From: Pseudomonadota bacterium
GTDB taxonomy: Bacteria; Pseudomonadota; Gammaproteobacteria; Steroidobacterales; Steroidobacteraceae
NCBI GenBank assembly: GCA_021790795.1
Contig: JAJYFU010000012.1
Location: forward strand, 1 to 47,371
DNA length: 47,371 nucleotides
Direction of reading: 5' to 3'
The position numbers were made by a program, and so were the translations under genes. The notes under the pieces were generated by a model, which saw nothing but the letters and a program-made list of their open reading frames with translations, did not search any database and was not told the origin of the DNA. Of the stretch, positions 16,763-47,371 are shown one piece after another. Each line of letters starts with the position of its first letter. Positions within the stretch are counted from its first letter, which is position 1.

Positions 16763-16778
16763 GCGCACCCTCGCGGAT

Positions 16779-16851
16779 GGGCCTGTAGCACAGCGGTTAG
16801 TGCAGGGGACTCATAATCCCTTGGTCGTAGGTTCGAATCCTACCAGGCCCA
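16779..16851 (+). tRNA. tRNA with CAT anticodon, probably tRNA-Ile2 (lysidine-modified)
   Basis: A 73-nt cloverleaf: acceptor GGGCCTG/CAGGCCC with discriminator A, D-arm with GGTTAG, anticodon stem GGGGA/TCCC around loop CTCATAA (anticodon CAT), variable loop TTGGTCG, and T-arm GTAGG-TTCGAAT-CCTAC. The D-loop, anticodon arm and variable loop resemble E. coli ileX (tRNA-Ile2) much more than elongator tRNA-Met, so it probably reads AUA after TilS modifies C34. CCA is not encoded, so it depends on the Cca enzyme in this window. Confidence 0.93.
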
Positions 16852-16864
16852 GAATCCACCCTTG

Positions 16865-19881: not shown

Positions 19882-20360
19882 GCCCACCCAATCAGCGGGT
19901 TTTCCCTTCCGGACCGTGCGCGCTTCGGCCATACGTGCCGGCCGCCGCATCGGGTGGCACTCGGAGGATCCCCATGCCTGCCGCCGCTGTCGTTCCCGCT
20001 CGAGGGCGGCTGCGACTGCGCTCAGAGCCGCTACGGCGGCGCCGGGCCAGTGCCGTGTGAACACACGCCAGCTCCGGCGGGATTGTCCGGGCCAGCGGCC
20101 TGGGCCGCGGATCGTCCACTACCGCGCACGACAGCCCGTGCCATCGCTGCGGCGAACGCGGCTAGCCCGGCCCTTCGCCCGGGCGTAGGCTCTAGCGGCG
20201 CGCCGAGGGAAGCGCCATTGCGGCTGTTGGCAGCTGGGCTCGGGTTCGCCGCCCGCGGGCTCGGCATCCCTGGCGAGCGCTGCCCAGGGGAACCTCCAGG
20301 CGGCTCGGCCCGCAACTTTCCGGCTCCTGCCGTGTTCTTGCCTCAAACGATGATCCACCC
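19882..20360. other. 479-nt gap upstream of the ECF sigma operon
   Basis: No complete gene is supported. Frames open through it have irregular codon use. One frame around 19996-20030 reads LEGGCDC-x3-RY, which resembles the N-terminal zinc motif of GFA-family (glutathione-dependent formaldehyde-activating-like) proteins, and a CHRC appears about 110 nt later in another frame; a decayed GFA gene is possible but weakly supported. The promoter of the sigma operon should lie here, but I could not find a convincing -35/-10 pair. Confidence 0.4.
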
Positions 20361-20945
20361 GTGCAACTGGCAAGCCCAAGGCCCGATTCTCGAGAGTTCG
20401 CAGCGTTTATGCGCGCCTATCAGGATATGGTTTTCTCCACAGCAGTCCGCCTGACGGGCAGCCCCGCGCAGGCCGAGGACATCAGCCAGGACGTGTTCCT
20501 GAAGGCTTACGAGAATTTCGGGCGCCTGCGAGAAAGTCCGACCGCGGGCGGGTGGCTGAAGACCGTGGCCACGAATCTGACGCTGAATCACCTGACCCGC
20601 CACCGTAATCGCTGGCGGCTGTTCTCCGAAGTCTTCGCCGACGACGGGCGCGAGGCCGATCTGGAGAGCGCCACCGCGACCTTCGACGGCGTCCTGCAGG
20701 AGATGGACGAGGCGCAACGCCATGCGCTCATCGAGCACGCCCTCGGTCAGCTCCCCGACCATCAGCGCGTGCCGCTCGTACTGTTTCACTTCGAAGAGAT
20801 GTCCTACCAGGATATCGCCGCCCGTCTCGGTCACTCCCTGGCCAAGATCAAGACCGATATCCTGCGTGGACGTCTCGCCATGGCCAAGTCGCTGGCGCAA
20901 AGCGGCGTGGCGCCAAGCTCCGCGCAAAGCTGCAACCCGACATGA
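20361..20945 (+). CDS. Sigma-70 family RNA polymerase sigma factor (ECF-like)
   Basis: A 194-aa two-domain sigma factor. Region 2 is seen in DMVFSTAVRLTGSPAQAEDI, DVFLKAYENFGRLRES and GGWLKTVATNLTLNHLTRH; region 4 in LPDHQRVPLVLFHFEEMSYQ and DIAARLGHSLAKIKTDILRG. There is no region 1 or 3. The start is GTG at 20361; ATG at 20409 is a weaker option. Its TGA overlaps the ATG of the next gene (ATGA), so the next membrane protein is translationally coupled, as in sigma/anti-sigma pairs. Its likely targets include its own operon, which encodes an envelope protein and an RND efflux pump. Confidence 0.88.
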   Translation: MQLASPRPDSREFAAFMRAYQDMVFSTAVRLTGSPAQAEDISQDVFLKAYENFGRLRESPTAGGWLKTVATNLTLNHLTRHRNRWRLFSEVFADDGREADLESATATFDGVLQEMDEAQRHALIEHALGQLPDHQRVPLVLFHFEEMSYQDIAARLGHSLAKIKTDILRGRLAMAKSLAQSGVAPSSAQSCNPT

Positions 20946-21430
20946 ATTCCCCTAACCGCACGCTCGAAGAACATCTGGAACACTTGACGCACGAGGCGCT
21001 GCGGCAGCTTCCGCCGTGCCGCGCGCCCGCCTCGCTCGAGGCCCGCATAATGGGTGAGGTCGCGGCGCGCGCCGCACAGCCGCGCCGGGCCGCCGGCATC
21101 AATCGCTGGCCGCTCGCGGCACGTCTGGCGCTGATGGCGGGCTGTATTCTGTGCATCCCGCTCGCCTGGGTGCTCATGATGAGCCTGCGGATGCAGCTGA
21201 GCTACACGCTGGTGGCCACCGGCGCGATCCCTGTTCTCCACGGCTTTCGGAGCGTGAGCAGCGCGCTGCTGCTGCTCGCCGAGCTTGCCGTTCACCTGGC
21301 TCGGCAGATCCCGGGAGCCTGGCTGTTCGGTGGGCTGCTGGCCACCGGCGCGCTGTACGCGGCCCTGTGCGCGCTCGGCCACCTCGTGCTCCGTTCGGCT
21401 GCACCACATTCCAAGGTTCACTCGGTATGA
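20942..21430 (+). CDS. Small membrane protein, candidate anti-sigma factor
   Basis: A 162-aa protein that I do not recognise by family. The first 60 residues are soluble and include LEEHLEHLTHEALRQLPPCR, similar in layout to an anti-sigma N-terminal helix bundle, though I see no zinc His-x3-Cys-x2-Cys motif. It has about three hydrophobic segments: LAARLALMAGCILCIPLAWV, one near residues 93-118, and LFGGLLATGALYAALCALGH. It overlaps both the sigma gene upstream and the bactofilin/RDD gene downstream by 4 nt, so all three are translationally coupled. Position and topology suggest a membrane regulator of the sigma factor; this is inference. Confidence 0.6.
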   Translation: MNSPNRTLEEHLEHLTHEALRQLPPCRAPASLEARIMGEVAARAAQPRRAAGINRWPLAARLALMAGCILCIPLAWVLMMSLRMQLSYTLVATGAIPVLHGFRSVSSALLLLAELAVHLARQIPGAWLFGGLLATGALYAALCALGHLVLRSAAPHSKVHSV

Positions 21431-23109
21431 AACAGATACTCCGCTGGGCGATGACCGGCGCGCTGCTCGCCGGACTGTGCGCATGCATCGCACCTGCCGC
21501 CGCGCACGATACCCGCCGCGTCGAGGTGGGCTCCACGGGCATCGACATCAGGGGCGGCGGCGGCCATGTCGTGATCGGCAACGGGGGAATCCGCATCACC
21601 GATCATTCCAAGTCCATCGTCATCGCGAAACAACAGTCCCGCTGCCCGAGCGGTCAGGAAATCGTCGAGGTCGGACACAATGCGCGGCTTCCCGCGGGCA
21701 GGGCCGCTTGCGACGTCGTGACGGTATTCGGCAACAGCTCGGTCCACGGCACCGTGTCGGACTCCGTGGTCGCGGTCATGGGCCGCACCCGCGTCGACGG
21801 CAACGTCGCCAACAGTGTGGTCACCGTCTTCGGCAACGGCCACATCAACGGCAGCGTCGGCGGCAACGTCGTGACGATTTTCGGCAACCTCAGACTCGGT
21901 CCCAAGGCCATCGTACAGGGCCAGACCGTCAGCCTGTTCGGCTCCTACGAGCGCAACCCGTCGGCGGTGGTTCAGGGCGGAACGGTCCGGCTCATGTCCG
22001 GCATCTTCCACTTCACGGACGCGTTGCAGGGGTGGGGCGAGCATTGTCTGCTCTTCGGCCGGCTGCTCGCGCCCCGACTCGACGTCCTGTGGGCCTGGGG
22101 GGTGGCGCTCGGCCTGCTGGCGATCTACCTGCTGGTGGCCGCCTTGTTCCGTGACGGCCTGCGCCACTGCGTCCGGACGCTGGAGGAGCACCCGGGTCCG
22201 TCGATTCTGACGGCGCTCGCAATGGTGCTGCTCACGCCGATCCTGATGCTCGTCTTGATGGTCGCGCTGACGGTGACCGTGGTCGGAATCATATTCGTTC
22301 CCCTGCTGTGGATCGGCCTGCTGTGCGCGGGGATTTTCGGGCGCGTCGTCACCCTTGCCTGGCTCGGCGGCCGGATACTGCGCGGCGCGCACCGTGGTGT
22401 CGACCAACCCGTCCTGCATGTGCTGGTCGGCGGGGTGCTGGTGTCGGTCTTGTACATGGTGCCGGTGGTCGGCTTCATTGTCTTCGCCGTGATCGGCCTG
22501 ATCGGCTTCGGCACGCTGACCTACACGCTGCTGCTCGCGCTGCGCTCAGCACGCGGCGCCGTGCCGCCGCCACAACCGGCCGAGCCCCCGGGCACGGCCG
22601 GCGCTGCGCCGGGTCCCGGGGCGGCCGCGGCCGACGCAACGAGCGAAACCGCCGCGATGAGCGCTGGCCCCATACCAGGCGCGACGGCGAGCGCCGCGCC
22701 CGCGGAGCCCACCCCGCTCGAATTGATGGCGCTGCCGCGCGCAGGGTTCTGGATCCGCATGGCGGCGCTGCTGATCGACCTGGTGCTGATCAGCGTCTGC
22801 CTGAGTCTGATCGGTCATCACGACAGCGACGGCACGCTGATCGCACTGGCCGCCTACGGCGCGATCATGTGGAAACTGCGCGGCACCACCGTCGGCGGCA
22901 TCATTTGCCACTTGCGCGTGGCGCGCATCGACGGCCGCCCGCTCAACTGGGAAACGGCGATTTTGCGCGCCCTCGGCTGCTTCCTCTCGTTGGTTGCCGC
23001 CGGACTCGGCTTCTTCTGGATAGCCTTCGATGCCGAGCGTCAGGCTTGGCACGACAAGATCGCCGGCACCGTGGTGGTGTCGGTTCCCAAGGTACGGGGC
23101 TTGGTGTGA
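21427..23109 (+). CDS. Bactofilin-like repeat domain fused to membrane helices and an RDD domain
   Basis: A 560-aa protein. Residues 1-26 are a signal peptide ending in APAAAHD. Residues about 94-190 form a right-handed beta-helix-like array of roughly 17-residue repeats (VVTVFGNSSVHGTVSDS, VVAVMGRTRVDGNVANS, VVTVFGNGHINGSVGGN), the pattern of bactofilin/polymer-forming proteins, here predicted outside the cytoplasm. About four to five membrane helices follow (220-373), then a Pro/Ala/Gly linker and an RDD domain (about 435-555) with FWIRMAALLIDLVL and the final DAERQAWHDKIAGTVVV. The ATG at 21427 overlaps the previous stop; the track start at 21151 is out of frame with that gene. No known function for this combination; probably an envelope structural or sensing component. 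Confidence 0.78.
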   Translation: MKQILRWAMTGALLAGLCACIAPAAAHDTRRVEVGSTGIDIRGGGGHVVIGNGGIRITDHSKSIVIAKQQSRCPSGQEIVEVGHNARLPAGRAACDVVTVFGNSSVHGTVSDSVVAVMGRTRVDGNVANSVVTVFGNGHINGSVGGNVVTIFGNLRLGPKAIVQGQTVSLFGSYERNPSAVVQGGTVRLMSGIFHFTDALQGWGEHCLLFGRLLAPRLDVLWAWGVALGLLAIYLLVAALFRDGLRHCVRTLEEHPGPSILTALAMVLLTPILMLVLMVALTVTVVGIIFVPLLWIGLLCAGIFGRVVTLAWLGGRILRGAHRGVDQPVLHVLVGGVLVSVLYMVPVVGFIVFAVIGLIGFGTLTYTLLLALRSARGAVPPPQPAEPPGTAGAAPGPGAAAADATSETAAMSAGPIPGATASAAPAEPTPLELMALPRAGFWIRMAALLIDLVLISVCLSLIGHHDSDGTLIALAAYGAIMWKLRGTTVGGIICHLRVARIDGRPLNWETAILRALGCFLSLVAAGLGFFWIAFDAERQAWHDKIAGTVVVSVPKVRGLV

Positions 23110-23110
23110 C

Positions 23111-24379
23111 ATGAGCACGCAGAACGACCCACAGCCCGTGATCGAGCCCGTGGCACGGGAGTCCTCCGCGATCGAGACTTCGGTCGCCGTCGACACCGGC
23201 GGCGGACCCTGGATCGGCCTCGATCGGCCCCCCGCCGACACTGCGACCGAACGCGGCGTCGGGACGCGCAAACTCTGGTGGCTCGCGGCCGGCGTGCTGC
23301 TTGCGCTCGCCGTCGCTGCCGGGGTGACCATGCGGGTGACGCGGGCATCCAAGCCGCTGACGCCACTCGCCGATCAGCGCAACATTCCCCTGGTCTCGAC
23401 CTTCGTCCCGGGTGTACGGCCGGTGAACACCGAAGTCATGGTGACCGGTTCGATCTCGGCGCGCCACGACCTGCCGATCGGCGACGGCGGTCAGGCCGAG
23501 CGCATCGTCGCGGTCTACGTGCAAGTCGGCGACGTGGTCAGGCGGGGTCAGATCCTGGCGCAGCTGGACGATTCAGTTTTGAAACCGCAGGTCGCCGAGC
23601 TCGCCGCGGCCCTTGCCAGGGCACAAGCCCAGGCGGCGCTCGCGGCCGCCGAGTACCGCCGGGCCGTGGCGATCGGCCCGAACGGCGGACTGTCGGCGCA
23701 AAATGTCGAGCAGCTCCAGGCCGCGGCGGCGATGGGCGTTGCCAACACCAGGATGGTCGCGGCGCAGCTGCGGCAGAAACGCGCCGAACTGGCCCTGACC
23801 CGCATCGTCGCGCCGGTCGCGGGCACCGTGCTGACTCGCGCGGCCGAGATCGGTCAGGTGGCCAGCCCCGGAGGCCCGCCGCTGTTCACCCTGGAGGATG
23901 AGAATCGCGTCGAGCTCATCGGACAGGTCGCCGAGCAGGATCTGGCCTCGTTGAAGGTCGGGCAACCGGCGCAGGTATATCTGATCGGATATCCGCGGCC
24001 TTTCCCGGGCCACATCTGGCTGCTCGGCGCCACCGTCGACACGCAGAGCCGGCTCGGCGAGGTGCGCATCGCTCTTGCGCCCAATCCTGCCTTGAGGCCC
24101 GGCGCGTTCGCGCACGCCGTAATCAGCGAGAGTCACGCCGAGCGGCCGGTGGTACCGCAAACGGCGGTCATGACCGACTCCAAGGGATCGTATGTGTTCA
24201 TCGTCAACCGCCGGAACGTCGTCGTGCGCCGACCGGTGCAGCTCGGCGGCGTGCTCGCCTCGGGCGTGGTCATCGCGAAGGGTCTGACCGGGCAGGAGCG
24301 CGTGGTGACCCTGGCGGGCGGCTTCCTGCAAGGCGGCGAGAAGGTGCAGGTGGCGTCCGCCGCGCCGGCACACTCATGA
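23111..24379 (+). CDS. RND efflux periplasmic adaptor (membrane fusion protein)
   Basis: A 422-aa HlyD-type adaptor that bridges an inner-membrane RND pump to an outer-membrane channel. The N-terminal about 55 residues are cytoplasmic; one membrane helix follows (LWWLAAGVLLALAVAAGVTM, about 56-76). The first lipoyl half is IVAVYVQVGDVVRRGQILAQ, then a coiled-coil hairpin, then the second lipoyl half LTRIVAPVAGTVLTRAAEIG. A beta-barrel and membrane-proximal domain complete it. The start ATG lies 1 nt after the RDD gene stop and its own end overlaps the permease start by 4 nt, tying the pump to the sigma operon. Confidence 0.92.
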   Translation: MSTQNDPQPVIEPVARESSAIETSVAVDTGGGPWIGLDRPPADTATERGVGTRKLWWLAAGVLLALAVAAGVTMRVTRASKPLTPLADQRNIPLVSTFVPGVRPVNTEVMVTGSISARHDLPIGDGGQAERIVAVYVQVGDVVRRGQILAQLDDSVLKPQVAELAAALARAQAQAALAAAEYRRAVAIGPNGGLSAQNVEQLQAAAAMGVANTRMVAAQLRQKRAELALTRIVAPVAGTVLTRAAEIGQVASPGGPPLFTLEDENRVELIGQVAEQDLASLKVGQPAQVYLIGYPRPFPGHIWLLGATVDTQSRLGEVRIALAPNPALRPGAFAHAVISESHAERPVVPQTAVMTDSKGSYVFIVNRRNVVVRRPVQLGGVLASGVVIAKGLTGQERVVTLAGGFLQGGEKVQVASAAPAHS

Positions 24380-27300
24380 AACGCCTGTCCGCATGGGCGA
24401 TCCGGCACCCGCTGCCGCCGATCGTGCTGTTCGTCGTGTTGCTGTTCGTCGGCATCGTGTCCTTCCTGCGCCTGCCGGTGACACAGAACCCCCACATTTC
24501 CTATCCCATCGTGTCGGTGGTGGTCAGCGAGCCGGGTGCGGCGCCGGAAGAAGTACAGATCCAGATCGTACGCCGAATCGAGGCGGCGGTGGCGGGGATC
24601 GGCAACATCCACCGCATTCTCTCCGACGCCTATCAGGGCGGCGAGGAAACCGACATCGAATTCCGGATCGGCACCCCGATCGATCGCGCCGTGACCGAAG
24701 TGCGCGACGCGGTCACCGAAGTACAGCCCGATTTGCCCAATGACATCCTGCCGCCGATGGTGCAGCAGGTCAAAGTCGACGGCGGACCGATCGTGTACTA
24801 CGCCGTCAGCTCCACCGATATGAGCGACCGGGCGATTTCCTGGTTCATCGACAACACGATCACCAAGACGCTGCTCAGAGTGCCGGGAGTCGCACAGGTC
24901 TCCCGCTACGGCGGCGTGAGCCGCGAGATCCGTGTCGAGCTGAATCCGGCGCGCATGCAGGCCCTCGGCATCACCGCCTCGCAAGTCAACCGGCAGCTGG
25001 CCAATCTCAACATCGACATGCCCGGCGGCCGCGCCGATCTCGGCGACGGCGAGCAGACCATCCGGGTGCTCGGCAACGCGCACACCGCCTGGCAGCTCGC
25101 GCAGACGCAGATTGCCCTCCCCGGCGGGCGGTTTGCCAGGCTCGGCAGCATCGCCACGGTGCGCGACGCCGCCGCCGAGGTGCGCAGCGTCGAGCTGTAC
25201 AACGGGCGCCCCGCCATCTCCTTCGGGGTGGCGCGCGCCCGCGACACCTCCGACGTCACGGTGCTGCGGGGCGTCCAGCGCGCCCTGGCCAAGATCCGCA
25301 AGGAATACCCCGACGTCGAGATCAATCAGACGTTCACCTCGGTCTCTTACACCACACACCAATATCACTCCGCGCTCGAGGCGCTCGTCGAGGGCTCGAT
25401 CCTCTCGGTGTTTGTGGTCTGGCTGTTCCTGCGGGACACGCGCGCCACGTTGATCTCCGCGCTGGCGATTCCGCTGTCGGCGATTCCCACGTTCGCGTTC
25501 ATGGAGGCGATGGGCTTCACGCTCAATCAGGTCAGCCTGCTCGCCCTGTCGATGGTATCGGGCGTGCTCGTCGATGACGCCATCGTCGAGATCGAGAACA
25601 TAGTGCGGCACAAACGCATGGGCAAAAGCGCCTATCAGGCCGCGATCGACGCGGCCGATCAGATCGGGCTCGCGGTCGTCGCGACTTCGTTCACCATCAT
25701 CGCGGTGTTCGTTCCGGTGAGCTTCATGAGCGGCATCATCGGCCAGTACTTCAGACAGTTCGGGCTGTCGGTGGCCGCTGCGGTTTTCTTCTCGCTGCTG
25801 GTCGCCCGGCTGCTGACGCCGGTGATCGCCGCCTACACCCTCAAATCGGAGCCGGAACCGGAACACCGGGACGGTCCGGTCATGGCATGGTACCTGCGTG
25901 TCCTGAATTGGTGCGTACATCACCGCTGGAAGACCGTCGGACTCGGCGTGCTGTTCTTCGTGGCGTCGGTCTACGGCCTGGCGATGATGCCCAAGACGTT
26001 CATCCAGGAGCCCGACACCAGCACCGCGTCGCTCGAGATCGACTTGCCTCCGGGCGTGCAGCTCGCCGACACGAAACGCGTCGCCAACGCGGCCTACCGC
26101 ATCCTCGCCCGACAGAAGGACGTGAAGGCCATCGACGAGTCGGTCGGTGTCAACGGCAGCGTGCGCAAGGCCAACCTGTCCGTCGTCCTGGTGCCGCCGA
26201 GCCAGCGCAGGCTGACGCAGGTCCAATGGCAGAACAGCATGCTCGGCAAGCTGCGCGCGATCCCCAATGCGCAGATGTACTTCCAGGACTTCAACGGCGA
26301 CAGCAACGGACATGACGTCACCGTCGATCTGACCGGAGACAACCTGACGCTTCTGGAGCGCACCGCCCGCAAGGTGATGCGGCAGATGGCGGTGCTGCCC
26401 AGTCTGCGCGACGTCAGCTCCGAGGACGATCTGCCGCGTCCGGAAATCCGCATCCGGCCGCGGTTCGATCTGGCCGCCCAGCTCGGCGTGACGGTTGCCG
26501 ACATCAGCCAGACGATCCGCATCGCCACGATCGGCGATCTGCTGCAGAACGACGCGAAATTCACGCTTCCCGACCGGCAGGTACCCATCCTGGTCAACCT
26601 GCGGCGCTCGGCGCGCGGAAGCTTGACGACACTGGAGAATCTGCCCGTGCCGACCGCGGACGGCGGCACCGTGCCGCTGAAAGCCGTCGCCGCCTTCAGC
26701 TTCGGCGAGGGCCCCACTCAGATACACAGCCGCGACCAGCGCCTGCGCATTGCGATCAACGCCAATCTGAGCAGCGGCGTGCAGCTCGGTCAGGCCATGA
26801 AGGAGATCCACGCGCTACCGGCGCTCGAGCACCTGCCGTCCGGCGTGCATCTGGCGGACACCGGCAATGCACGCCTGATGTCGGAGCTGTTCACCGACTT
26901 CTTGATCGCGATGGGCACCGGCGTATTGATGGTGTTCGCGGTGCTGGTGCTGCTGTTCGCCCGGCTGCTGCAGCCGATCACGATCCTCTCGGCGCTGCCG
27001 CTGTCCATCGGCGGGGCGGTGGGCGCTCTCTACGTCACGGGGGAGCCGCTGTCTCTCGGGGTGATGATCGGCTTTCTGATGCTCATGGGCATCGTGGCGA
27101 AGAACTCGATTCTGCTCGTCGACTTCGCGATCGAAGAGATGCGTGCCGGCAAGGATCGGGTAACCGCGCTGCTCGAAGCCGGACACAAGCGCGCGCGGCC
27201 GATCGTCATGACCACGGTGGCCATGGTCGCCGGCATGCTGCCGGTCGCGCTCGCGATCGGCGACCCTTTCCGCGCGCCCATGGCGATCGCGGTGATCGGC

Positions 27301-27462
27301 GGCCTGCTCGCCTCCACCGCCCTGACGCTGGTGGTCGTGCCGGCCGGTTTCACGCTGGTCGACGACATCGAGCGCTGGATCGGACCGAAATTGGCGAAAG
27401 TGGTGATCGCCGAGCCGGGCGCGGTGCACGCGGCCTCCACGCCGGCGCGTCAGCCGGGATGA
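24376..27462 (+). CDS. RND (HAE1/AcrB-type) efflux permease
   Basis: A 1028-aa inner-membrane proton/drug antiporter with the RND repeat plan of twelve helices and two large periplasmic loops. The N-terminus (WAIRHPLPPIVLFVVLLFVG) is the first helix; the proton-relay Asp pair of helix 4 is in SMVSGVLVDDAIVEIENI, about residues 399-400; and the second half carries LMLMGIVAKNSILLVDFAIE. Length is normal. It is closer to the VexF/CzcA-neutral multidrug group by eye than to metal pumps, which usually have an extra acidic residue set; the substrate cannot be read from sequence. No outer-membrane channel gene is in the window. Confidence 0.93.
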   Translation: MKRLSAWAIRHPLPPIVLFVVLLFVGIVSFLRLPVTQNPHISYPIVSVVVSEPGAAPEEVQIQIVRRIEAAVAGIGNIHRILSDAYQGGEETDIEFRIGTPIDRAVTEVRDAVTEVQPDLPNDILPPMVQQVKVDGGPIVYYAVSSTDMSDRAISWFIDNTITKTLLRVPGVAQVSRYGGVSREIRVELNPARMQALGITASQVNRQLANLNIDMPGGRADLGDGEQTIRVLGNAHTAWQLAQTQIALPGGRFARLGSIATVRDAAAEVRSVELYNGRPAISFGVARARDTSDVTVLRGVQRALAKIRKEYPDVEINQTFTSVSYTTHQYHSALEALVEGSILSVFVVWLFLRDTRATLISALAIPLSAIPTFAFMEAMGFTLNQVSLLALSMVSGVLVDDAIVEIENIVRHKRMGKSAYQAAIDAADQIGLAVVATSFTIIAVFVPVSFMSGIIGQYFRQFGLSVAAAVFFSLLVARLLTPVIAAYTLKSEPEPEHRDGPVMAWYLRVLNWCVHHRWKTVGLGVLFFVASVYGLAMMPKTFIQEPDTSTASLEIDLPPGVQLADTKRVANAAYRILARQKDVKAIDESVGVNGSVRKANLSVVLVPPSQRRLTQVQWQNSMLGKLRAIPNAQMYFQDFNGDSNGHDVTVDLTGDNLTLLERTARKVMRQMAVLPSLRDVSSEDDLPRPEIRIRPRFDLAAQLGVTVADISQTIRIATIGDLLQNDAKFTLPDRQVPILVNLRRSARGSLTTLENLPVPTADGGTVPLKAVAAFSFGEGPTQIHSRDQRLRIAINANLSSGVQLGQAMKEIHALPALEHLPSGVHLADTGNARLMSELFTDFLIAMGTGVLMVFAVLVLLFARLLQPITILSALPLSIGGAVGALYVTGEPLSLGVMIGFLMLMGIVAKNSILLVDFAIEEMRAGKDRVTALLEAGHKRARPIVMTTVAMVAGMLPVALAIGDPFRAPMAIAVIGGLLASTALTLVVVPAGFTLVDDIERWIGPKLAKVVIAEPGAVHAASTPARQPG

Positions 27463-46249: not shown

Positions 46250-47371
46250 TCAGTTGATCCTGATCTCGGGCTCGACCGACATGCCGGGACCGAGCACACA
46301 GCCGGACGGCAGTGCGTCGAAAGTGATCCGAACCGGCACGCGCTGCACGACCTTCACGTAATTCCCGGTGGCGTTCTGCGGCGGCAGGAGATCGAACGCC
46401 ACGCCCGATCCGCGCTGAATCGACTGCACCTTGCCATGAACGGTGGCGTTCGGACACGCGTCGATGTGGATGCTCGCGCGCTGACCGGGGTGGATGAGGT
46501 ACAGGTCGGTCTCTTTGAGGTTTGCAGTCACCCACATCGTGAGCGGAACGAGCGCCATCAGCTCCTGTCCGGGACTGACATAGTTGCCGATGGCCACTAA
46601 TTTCTTCGTTACGTGGCCGGCTTCGGCGGCCCTGACGGTGGTGTAGCTCAGGTCGAGGCGCGCGGCCGCGACCTGCGCGCGGGCGCTCGCCACGCGGGCC
46701 CTGGCACCCGCCACAGCCGCGTGCGCCGCCTCGAGCTGGGCTCGTGCGCCGACCACTTTCTGGCGCGCCGCGCGCAATTGAGCCTTGGCGCTGCGCGCAG
46801 CCGCCTCGACTTGGTCGAGCTGCGTGCGCGCCAGGGCCTCGATGTTGCGGCGGCGCAGAAAGAGATAGCGGTGCAGGTTCGCGAGCGCGTTCACCGTCTG
46901 GGCTTGTGTGCTGATGTATGCCGCTCGGGCCTGCTCGACCGCCGCACGCGCAACTGAGACGTTTGCCTGCGCCTGGCCCAGACCGGTCCGCGCCAGTTGC
47001 TCGGCCGCCAACGACTGGCGCAGCGCCACCCGGAAGGGAGCCGGATCGATCTGTGCCAGAACCTGGCCCGCGGCGACTTTCTCGTTGTCCACGACCGGCA
47101 CCGCGATCACCTGCCCGGACACACGGGGCGAAACCGCAGCGATTCGAGTGTCGATGAACGCATCGTCGGTACCGACGAACTGGCTCTCGTACTTCCAGAT
47201 CAGCACGCCAGCGATGATTCCCACGAGAATGACGCCGGCAGCCACGATCTTGAGCACCATCTGCCGGCGCAGTGCGCCCTGCGGCGCCTGCCGGTCGGCG
47301 CCGCTCTGGGGTGCCGGGGTGCCGCTGACATCGCTGTGGATTGGGGTCTCTGGCCGGCGGTCGCCGGCACT
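46250..47371 (-). CDS. EmrA-like membrane fusion protein, 5' end cut by the window
   Basis: HlyD/EmrA adaptor of the adjacent EmrB pump. A membrane helix (LKIVAAGVILVGIIAGVLIW) is followed by VGTDDAFIDTRIAAVSPRVS (diagnostic of EmrA), the lipoyl half, an Ala/Arg-rich coiled coil, and the beta barrel with PLTMWVTANLKETDLYLIHP. The track starts at the ATG at 47260, only one codon before the helix region, but the frame stays open to base 47371 with a polar leader (ALRRQ before the Met), as EmrA proteins usually have a cytoplasmic tail. So the true start is probably outside the window. Confidence 0.92.
   Translation of the reverse strand, partial: SAGDRRPETPIHSDVSGTPAPQSGADRQAPQGALRRQMVLKIVAAGVILVGIIAGVLIWKYESQFVGTDDAFIDTRIAAVSPRVSGQVIAVPVVDNEKVAAGQVLAQIDPAPFRVALRQSLAAEQLARTGLGQAQANVSVARAAVEQARAAYISTQAQTVNALANLHRYLFLRRRNIEALARTQLDQVEAAARSAKAQLRAARQKVVGARAQLEAAHAAVAGARARVASARAQVAAARLDLSYTTVRAAEAGHVTKKLVAIGNYVSPGQELMALVPLTMWVTANLKETDLYLIHPGQRASIHIDACPNATVHGKVQSIQRGSGVAFDLLPPQNATGNYVKVVQRVPVRITFDALPSGCVLGPGMSVEPEIRIN

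Follow-up and report, generated by a model that had tools for sequence, protein, structure and literature searches.

The gene at positions 21427-23109 of the window (the whole 47,371-nucleotide stretch of DNA that was analysed) belongs to a conserved and apparently undescribed three-gene operon, in which it follows the genes of an ECF sigma factor and of a small membrane protein that is a putative anti-sigma factor. It encodes a 560-aa protein made of a very probably periplasmic beta-helix, five transmembrane (TM) helices and an RDD domain, which may well be the third, near-obligatory part of an autoregulated ECF sigma system, supplying its periplasmic input. The trio probably senses the envelope and, in the home genus, turns on drug-efflux and envelope genes. 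The first-pass annotation of this DNA had described the same open reading frame as extracytoplasmic bactofilin-like repeats fused to an RDD domain, and had proposed a membrane-anchored periplasmic lattice or a gated permease. It overlooked the genomic context: the gene is locked to the ECF sigma/anti-sigma-like pair, and such linkage suggests regulation instead of a cytoskeleton or a permease as such.

The operon and its conservation

All the genes of the operon lie on the forward strand. The first one (20361-20945, probable GTG start at 20361) encodes an ECF sigma factor, judged by the presence of regions 2 and 4 only (Pfam Sigma70_r2 and r4_2) and by the match to the sigma70-ECF superfamily model, all above cut-off. 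The product of the second one (20942-21430) is a small membrane protein; its N-terminal segment in the cytoplasm is short, it has two or more TM helices, and it lacks a folded domain on the periplasmic side. A significant match to this protein was found neither in Pfam nor in the PDB, and its matches to the NCBIfam anti-sigma models are weak (E 0.003-0.009, far under cut-off). Its gene lies directly after the sigma gene and its cytoplasmic N-terminus is followed by a TM helix, as in the usual anti-sigma layout; position, topology, the conservation of the family and the weak profile matches suggest that it is an anti-sigma factor. The sigma gene, the anti-sigma-like gene and the 21427-23109 gene overlap consecutively by 4 nt. 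The trio is followed, in the home clade only, by RND genes, which in the window encode a periplasmic adaptor (MFP; 23111-24379; TIGR01730 RND_mfp above cut-off), starting 1 nt past the stop of the third gene, and an efflux permease (ACR_tran; 24376-27462; Pfam, 728 bits). The window also carries a tRNA-Met (cat) gene at 16778-16852 and a tRNA-Arg (gcg) gene at 46637-46720.

In order to evaluate this linkage, we used two locus sets that partly overlap, each spanning Gammaproteobacteria and Verrucomicrobiota. In the first scan, both genes were found directly upstream of the full-length protein in 29/30 loci, the gap between the stop of the anti-sigma-like gene and the third gene ranging from -17 to +29 nt, most commonly -4. 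In the second set (32 full-length loci), the anti-sigma-like gene is present in 31 cases and the sigma gene in 30; L062 gave no sigma match, its stretch being possibly too short. In the exception (L011/L044), the protein is encoded alone (L011:5908-7491) behind a leuA-like (2-isopropylmalate-synthase-like) gene, with no sigma or anti-sigma-like gene, and the closest locus in the tree, L013, carries the trio. The genes located after the trio differ by lineage, suggesting that the constant core is regulatory.

The distribution of the third protein is patchy. Matches to the beta+TM profile were obtained in 20/289 sampled Verrucomicrobiota genomes (17 of these appear full) and in 6/97 genomes from the order of Povalibacter (one partial). 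Among 30 closely related genomes, the window genome counted, 11 have the protein, and in a sample of 398 genomes from its phylum the window genome is the sole match. In the tree, which has an arbitrary root and converging long branches, the Pseudomonadota sequences are nested in a more diverse Verrucomicrobiota set, and transfer is possible. Povalibacter uvarum DSM 26723 (L019) is a named strain that carries the trio. Our literature searches returned no report of an RDD fusion of this kind or of the sigma trio, none that connects RDD with bactofilin or "polymer-forming cytoskeletal", nothing relevant on bactofilin with an ECF sigma factor, and none on RDD in ECF classification. Since they did not cover the main ECF catalogue and reclassification, novelty is provisional and the sigma factor may belong to an existing ECF group.

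Architecture and topology of the third protein

The 560-aa protein begins with a signal peptide (residues 1-26, 21427-21504, cut between APAAA and HD), with a basic n-region, a hydrophobic core and an A-x-A-like site in most relatives. A right-handed beta-helix follows (residues 78-190, 21658-21996). Within residues 94-193, the residue autocorrelation is highest at lags of 17 (z 5.4) and 34 (z 5.6), values that none of 2000 shuffles reached, and the turns comprise three of 17 residues and two of 19. AF2, with 28 relatives as input, places five TM helices (residues 218-377, 22078-22557) at 218-240, 256-283, 287-321, 328-342 and 348-377, as supported by hydropathy and positive-inside charges. 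They are separated by a disordered Ala/Pro linker (383-426) from the C-terminal RDD domain (438-552, 22738-23082), which scores 61.1 bits against a Pfam cut-off of 24.1 (PF06271), a cut-off passed by all the relatives scanned as well. In the alignments, the RDD residues F441, R444, D451, W482, G486, R500, R514, H542 and D543 are family-invariant. The beta repeats that the first-pass annotation had seen behind a signal peptide, at residues 94-190, are thus real and extend to about 78-190, and the helices and the terminal RDD domain that it had described are recovered too; the structure prediction that it had proposed as a check yields the beta-helix, with a pLDDT of 96.2 for the isolated domain. 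No paralogue of the protein was found in the window genome.

The location of the repeats was addressed by prediction only. Signal peptides are conserved among the relatives. In the set of 28 relatives, K/R make up 16-22% of the loops predicted to be cytoplasmic, while the two predicted periplasmic loops contain none (0.00), and the beta domain is acidic (5.5% KR vs 10.5% DE). Moreover, Cys73 and Cys95 co-occur in 9/28 relatives, all home-clade proteins, and are both missing in the other 19, a pattern expected if they form a disulfide outside the cytoplasm. Loop charges, acidic beta domain and paired cysteines, along with the signal peptides and the AF2 model, indicate that the repeats are very probably periplasmic, in line with the extracytoplasmic placement and with the combination of beta-helix, multiple TM helices and RDD domain that had been proposed. 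We also considered a lipoprotein reading, which was rejected as lipobox-like cysteines occur in some relatives (L009, L010) and in most there are none.

Relationship of the beta-helix to bactofilins

When submitted to Foldseek, the full-length model gave no match at E<=0.001, and since this was uninformative the beta domain was folded separately (AF2, pLDDT as given above, pTM 0.87). Its best global structural match is the NMR structure of the bactofilin BacA (2n3d; Foldseek probability 0.97, TM 0.67/0.74), with a superposition of 2.5 A over 110 columns and a weak Foldseek E-value of 0.33. By sequence the relationship is marginal. The 560-aa protein has no match to Pfam Bactofilin (PF04519) at E<=1, the top score among its relatives is 22.7 bits, below the cut-off of 27.9, and the top PDB match of the family profile is again a bactofilin, 6ria, at E 0.016. 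"Bactofilin-like" is therefore appropriate for the fold and weak at the sequence level.

Like bactofilins (PF04519; BacA 2n3d, Thermus 6ria), the protein has a right-handed beta-helix with turns of 17-19 residues. Unlike them, it has a signal peptide, a periplasmic placement and a C-terminal extension of five TM helices and RDD; bactofilins are mostly cytoplasmic, whereas signal peptide, charges and cysteines predict the opposite location here. TM bactofilins make up about 3.2% of those known, and their TM helices are N-terminal (PMC12448750). RDD-less proteins that combine a signal peptide with bactofilin-like repeats and several TM helices are found too (L064, L065, L066 and L073), so that periplasmic bactofilin-like repeats are not unique to the 560-aa protein. 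Their layout is identical to that of the latter as far as the last TM helix, but they have no RDD, and no sigma or anti-sigma-like gene was found within flanks of about 1.5 kb. These RDD-less proteins represent a wider class which almost no family model covers, L066 alone scoring above the Pfam Bactofilin cut-off.

Promoter and predicted regulon

An ECF-type promoter, CAACTTT-N12-GTGTT (-35 CAACTTT, -10 (C)GTGTT), lies before the sigma gene at 20313-20336 on the forward strand. Alignment of the DNA upstream of the sigma genes from both phyla revealed a shared element, TG(C/T)(A/G)ACTTT, 12-13 bases, then (C/G)GTGTT or a variant such as GGGTT, which fits the general layout of ECF promoters. The motif occurs once in the window, against 0.02 expected. 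Throughout the 2.8 Mb window genome, CAACTTT-N11-13-GTGTT was found twice and the reversed control not at all. One of the two sites is the sigma promoter, and the only other exact one precedes a Toastrack gene with DUF4097 (L076:1237-2337, contig C96). The conservation of this promoter before the sigma gene in both phyla implies autoregulation.

In the home genus (21 genomes), we counted 37 motif sites vs 7 for the control, a five-fold enrichment (p 5e-6), and 29 vs 7 once the sigma promoters were removed (p 3e-4). The recurrent targets, with the motif about 13-30 nt before the start, are tolC, DUF2807, DUF4097 and small exported peptides. Sites before tolC, mostly at 13 nt, were observed in L082, L084, L085, L086, L088 and L117, the last from a genome outside the 21-genome sample; the TolC assignment was checked with Pfam for L082 alone and relies on visibly similar N-termini for the others. 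The window genome has CAACCTT-N12-GTGTT, with one mismatch, at an equal distance from its own tolC (contig C28, near 17480). TolC thus appears to be under this sigma factor in the home clade, and the RND genes and tolC, if driven by the common motif, would form a co-regulated tripartite pump. DUF2807 sites were found in L101, L104 and L115, the domain being Pfam-checked in the first two and assigned to L115 by its visibly similar N-terminus. Short exported peptides of about 40-70 aa, with a common signal-like N-terminus and a variable tail, have the motif 27-43 nt upstream (L079, L081, L087, L097, L099, L103, L114).

Genomes of the genus that are >90% complete and do not encode the protein have 0 sites (G398, G399) or 1, within a coding region (G413). 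In three Gammaproteobacteria outside the genus, the exact motif gave three sites, essentially the sigma promoter alone, and consequently the wider regulon is shown for the home genus only. A broad Verrucomicrobiota regulon (CGACTTT form) was not supported, with 9 sites vs 7 for the control. Small all-hydrophobic membrane proteins are encoded behind the motif in two Verrucomicrobiota genomes (L112:1228-1488 and L109:1556-1753), possibly by chance.

Proposed function and alternatives

The trio is invariant, and its anti-sigma-like protein has no sensor domain while the third protein has one, which makes an input role the best reading; we would put its chance of being right at about even. The solitary copy of the protein in L011 speaks against it. 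In this reading, the anti-sigma-like membrane protein, itself devoid of a periplasmic sensor domain, would retain the sigma factor. The beta-helix would be the periplasmic input, sensing the envelope or a ligand, and the TM bundle and RDD may signal its state, inside the membrane, to the anti-sigma-like protein, thereby setting sigma release. Once freed, sigma would drive transcription of the operon that encodes it; in the home genus its targets would also include the co-operonic RND pump, tolC, the Toastrack/DUF2807 envelope proteins and the small exported peptides. The computations establish the architecture, the topology, the conservation of the trio, the promoter and the enrichment of the motif in the genus; contact with the anti-sigma-like protein, sensing, the direction of control and expression that depends on sigma are inferred from them.

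In the main alternative, control runs the other way, the 560-aa protein being an output, namely an envelope-stabilising or scaffold protein under sigma control that feeds back through operon autoregulation only. We regard this as possible but rather unlikely. The gene does lie within an autoregulated operon whose predicted genus regulon includes other envelope proteins, several of them beta-helical (Toastrack/DUF2807), and a constant effector would give an equally strict linkage. Against it stand the persistence of the gene beside the sigma/anti-sigma-like pair over two phyla while the later genes change, and the lack of a sensor domain in the anti-sigma-like protein.

Since the domain has the bactofilin fold and that family forms nucleotide-independent, non-polar filaments (PMC12448750), the helices might polymerise into a membrane-anchored periplasmic lattice, with or without its mechanical state serving as the signal; this is unlikely, as the C-terminal end of the helix continues directly into a membrane helix and the sequence falls under the bactofilin cut-off. 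It is just as doubtful that the assembly state of the helix is itself the signal, read through RDD/TM contacts by the sensor-less anti-sigma, as in a cytoskeleton-type sensor. Transport of ions or a solute by the RDD and TM bundle, with the helix as gate or binding element, is improbable, for although the RDD has family-invariant charged residues in or near its helices and an RND pump adjoins in the home clade, the sequence gives no evidence of transport, the RND genes follow the trio in that clade only and a sigma operon is an unusual setting for a permease.

Comparison with known systems

In many cases, neither the signal of an ECF sigma factor nor its route across the membrane is known. The trio is compact and conserved in two phyla, and its predicted promoter and genus regulon make the role of a periplasmic bactofilin-fold domain directly testable. 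The trio also places RDD domains in a regulatory context, and the regulon provides a prediction of how one bacterial clade controls its RND-TolC pump.

A parallel in organisation is RpoE-RseA-RseB of E. coli, in which a sigma factor, a membrane anti-sigma factor and a third gene whose product has a periplasmic domain likewise share one operon. RseB, however, is soluble in the periplasm and has a different fold, and RseA, unlike the anti-sigma-like protein described here, carries a periplasmic domain; no homology is claimed between the two systems. As in the Psp/Lia systems with their Toastrack partners, beta-helical envelope-stress proteins would be tied to transcription control (PMC11237479). 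The Toastrack domain, which that work argues to be intracellular with no mention of RDD or bactofilin, is a different family, and the operon described here has an ECF sigma factor; another link between the two is that Toastrack proteins are themselves predicted targets of the trio sigma.
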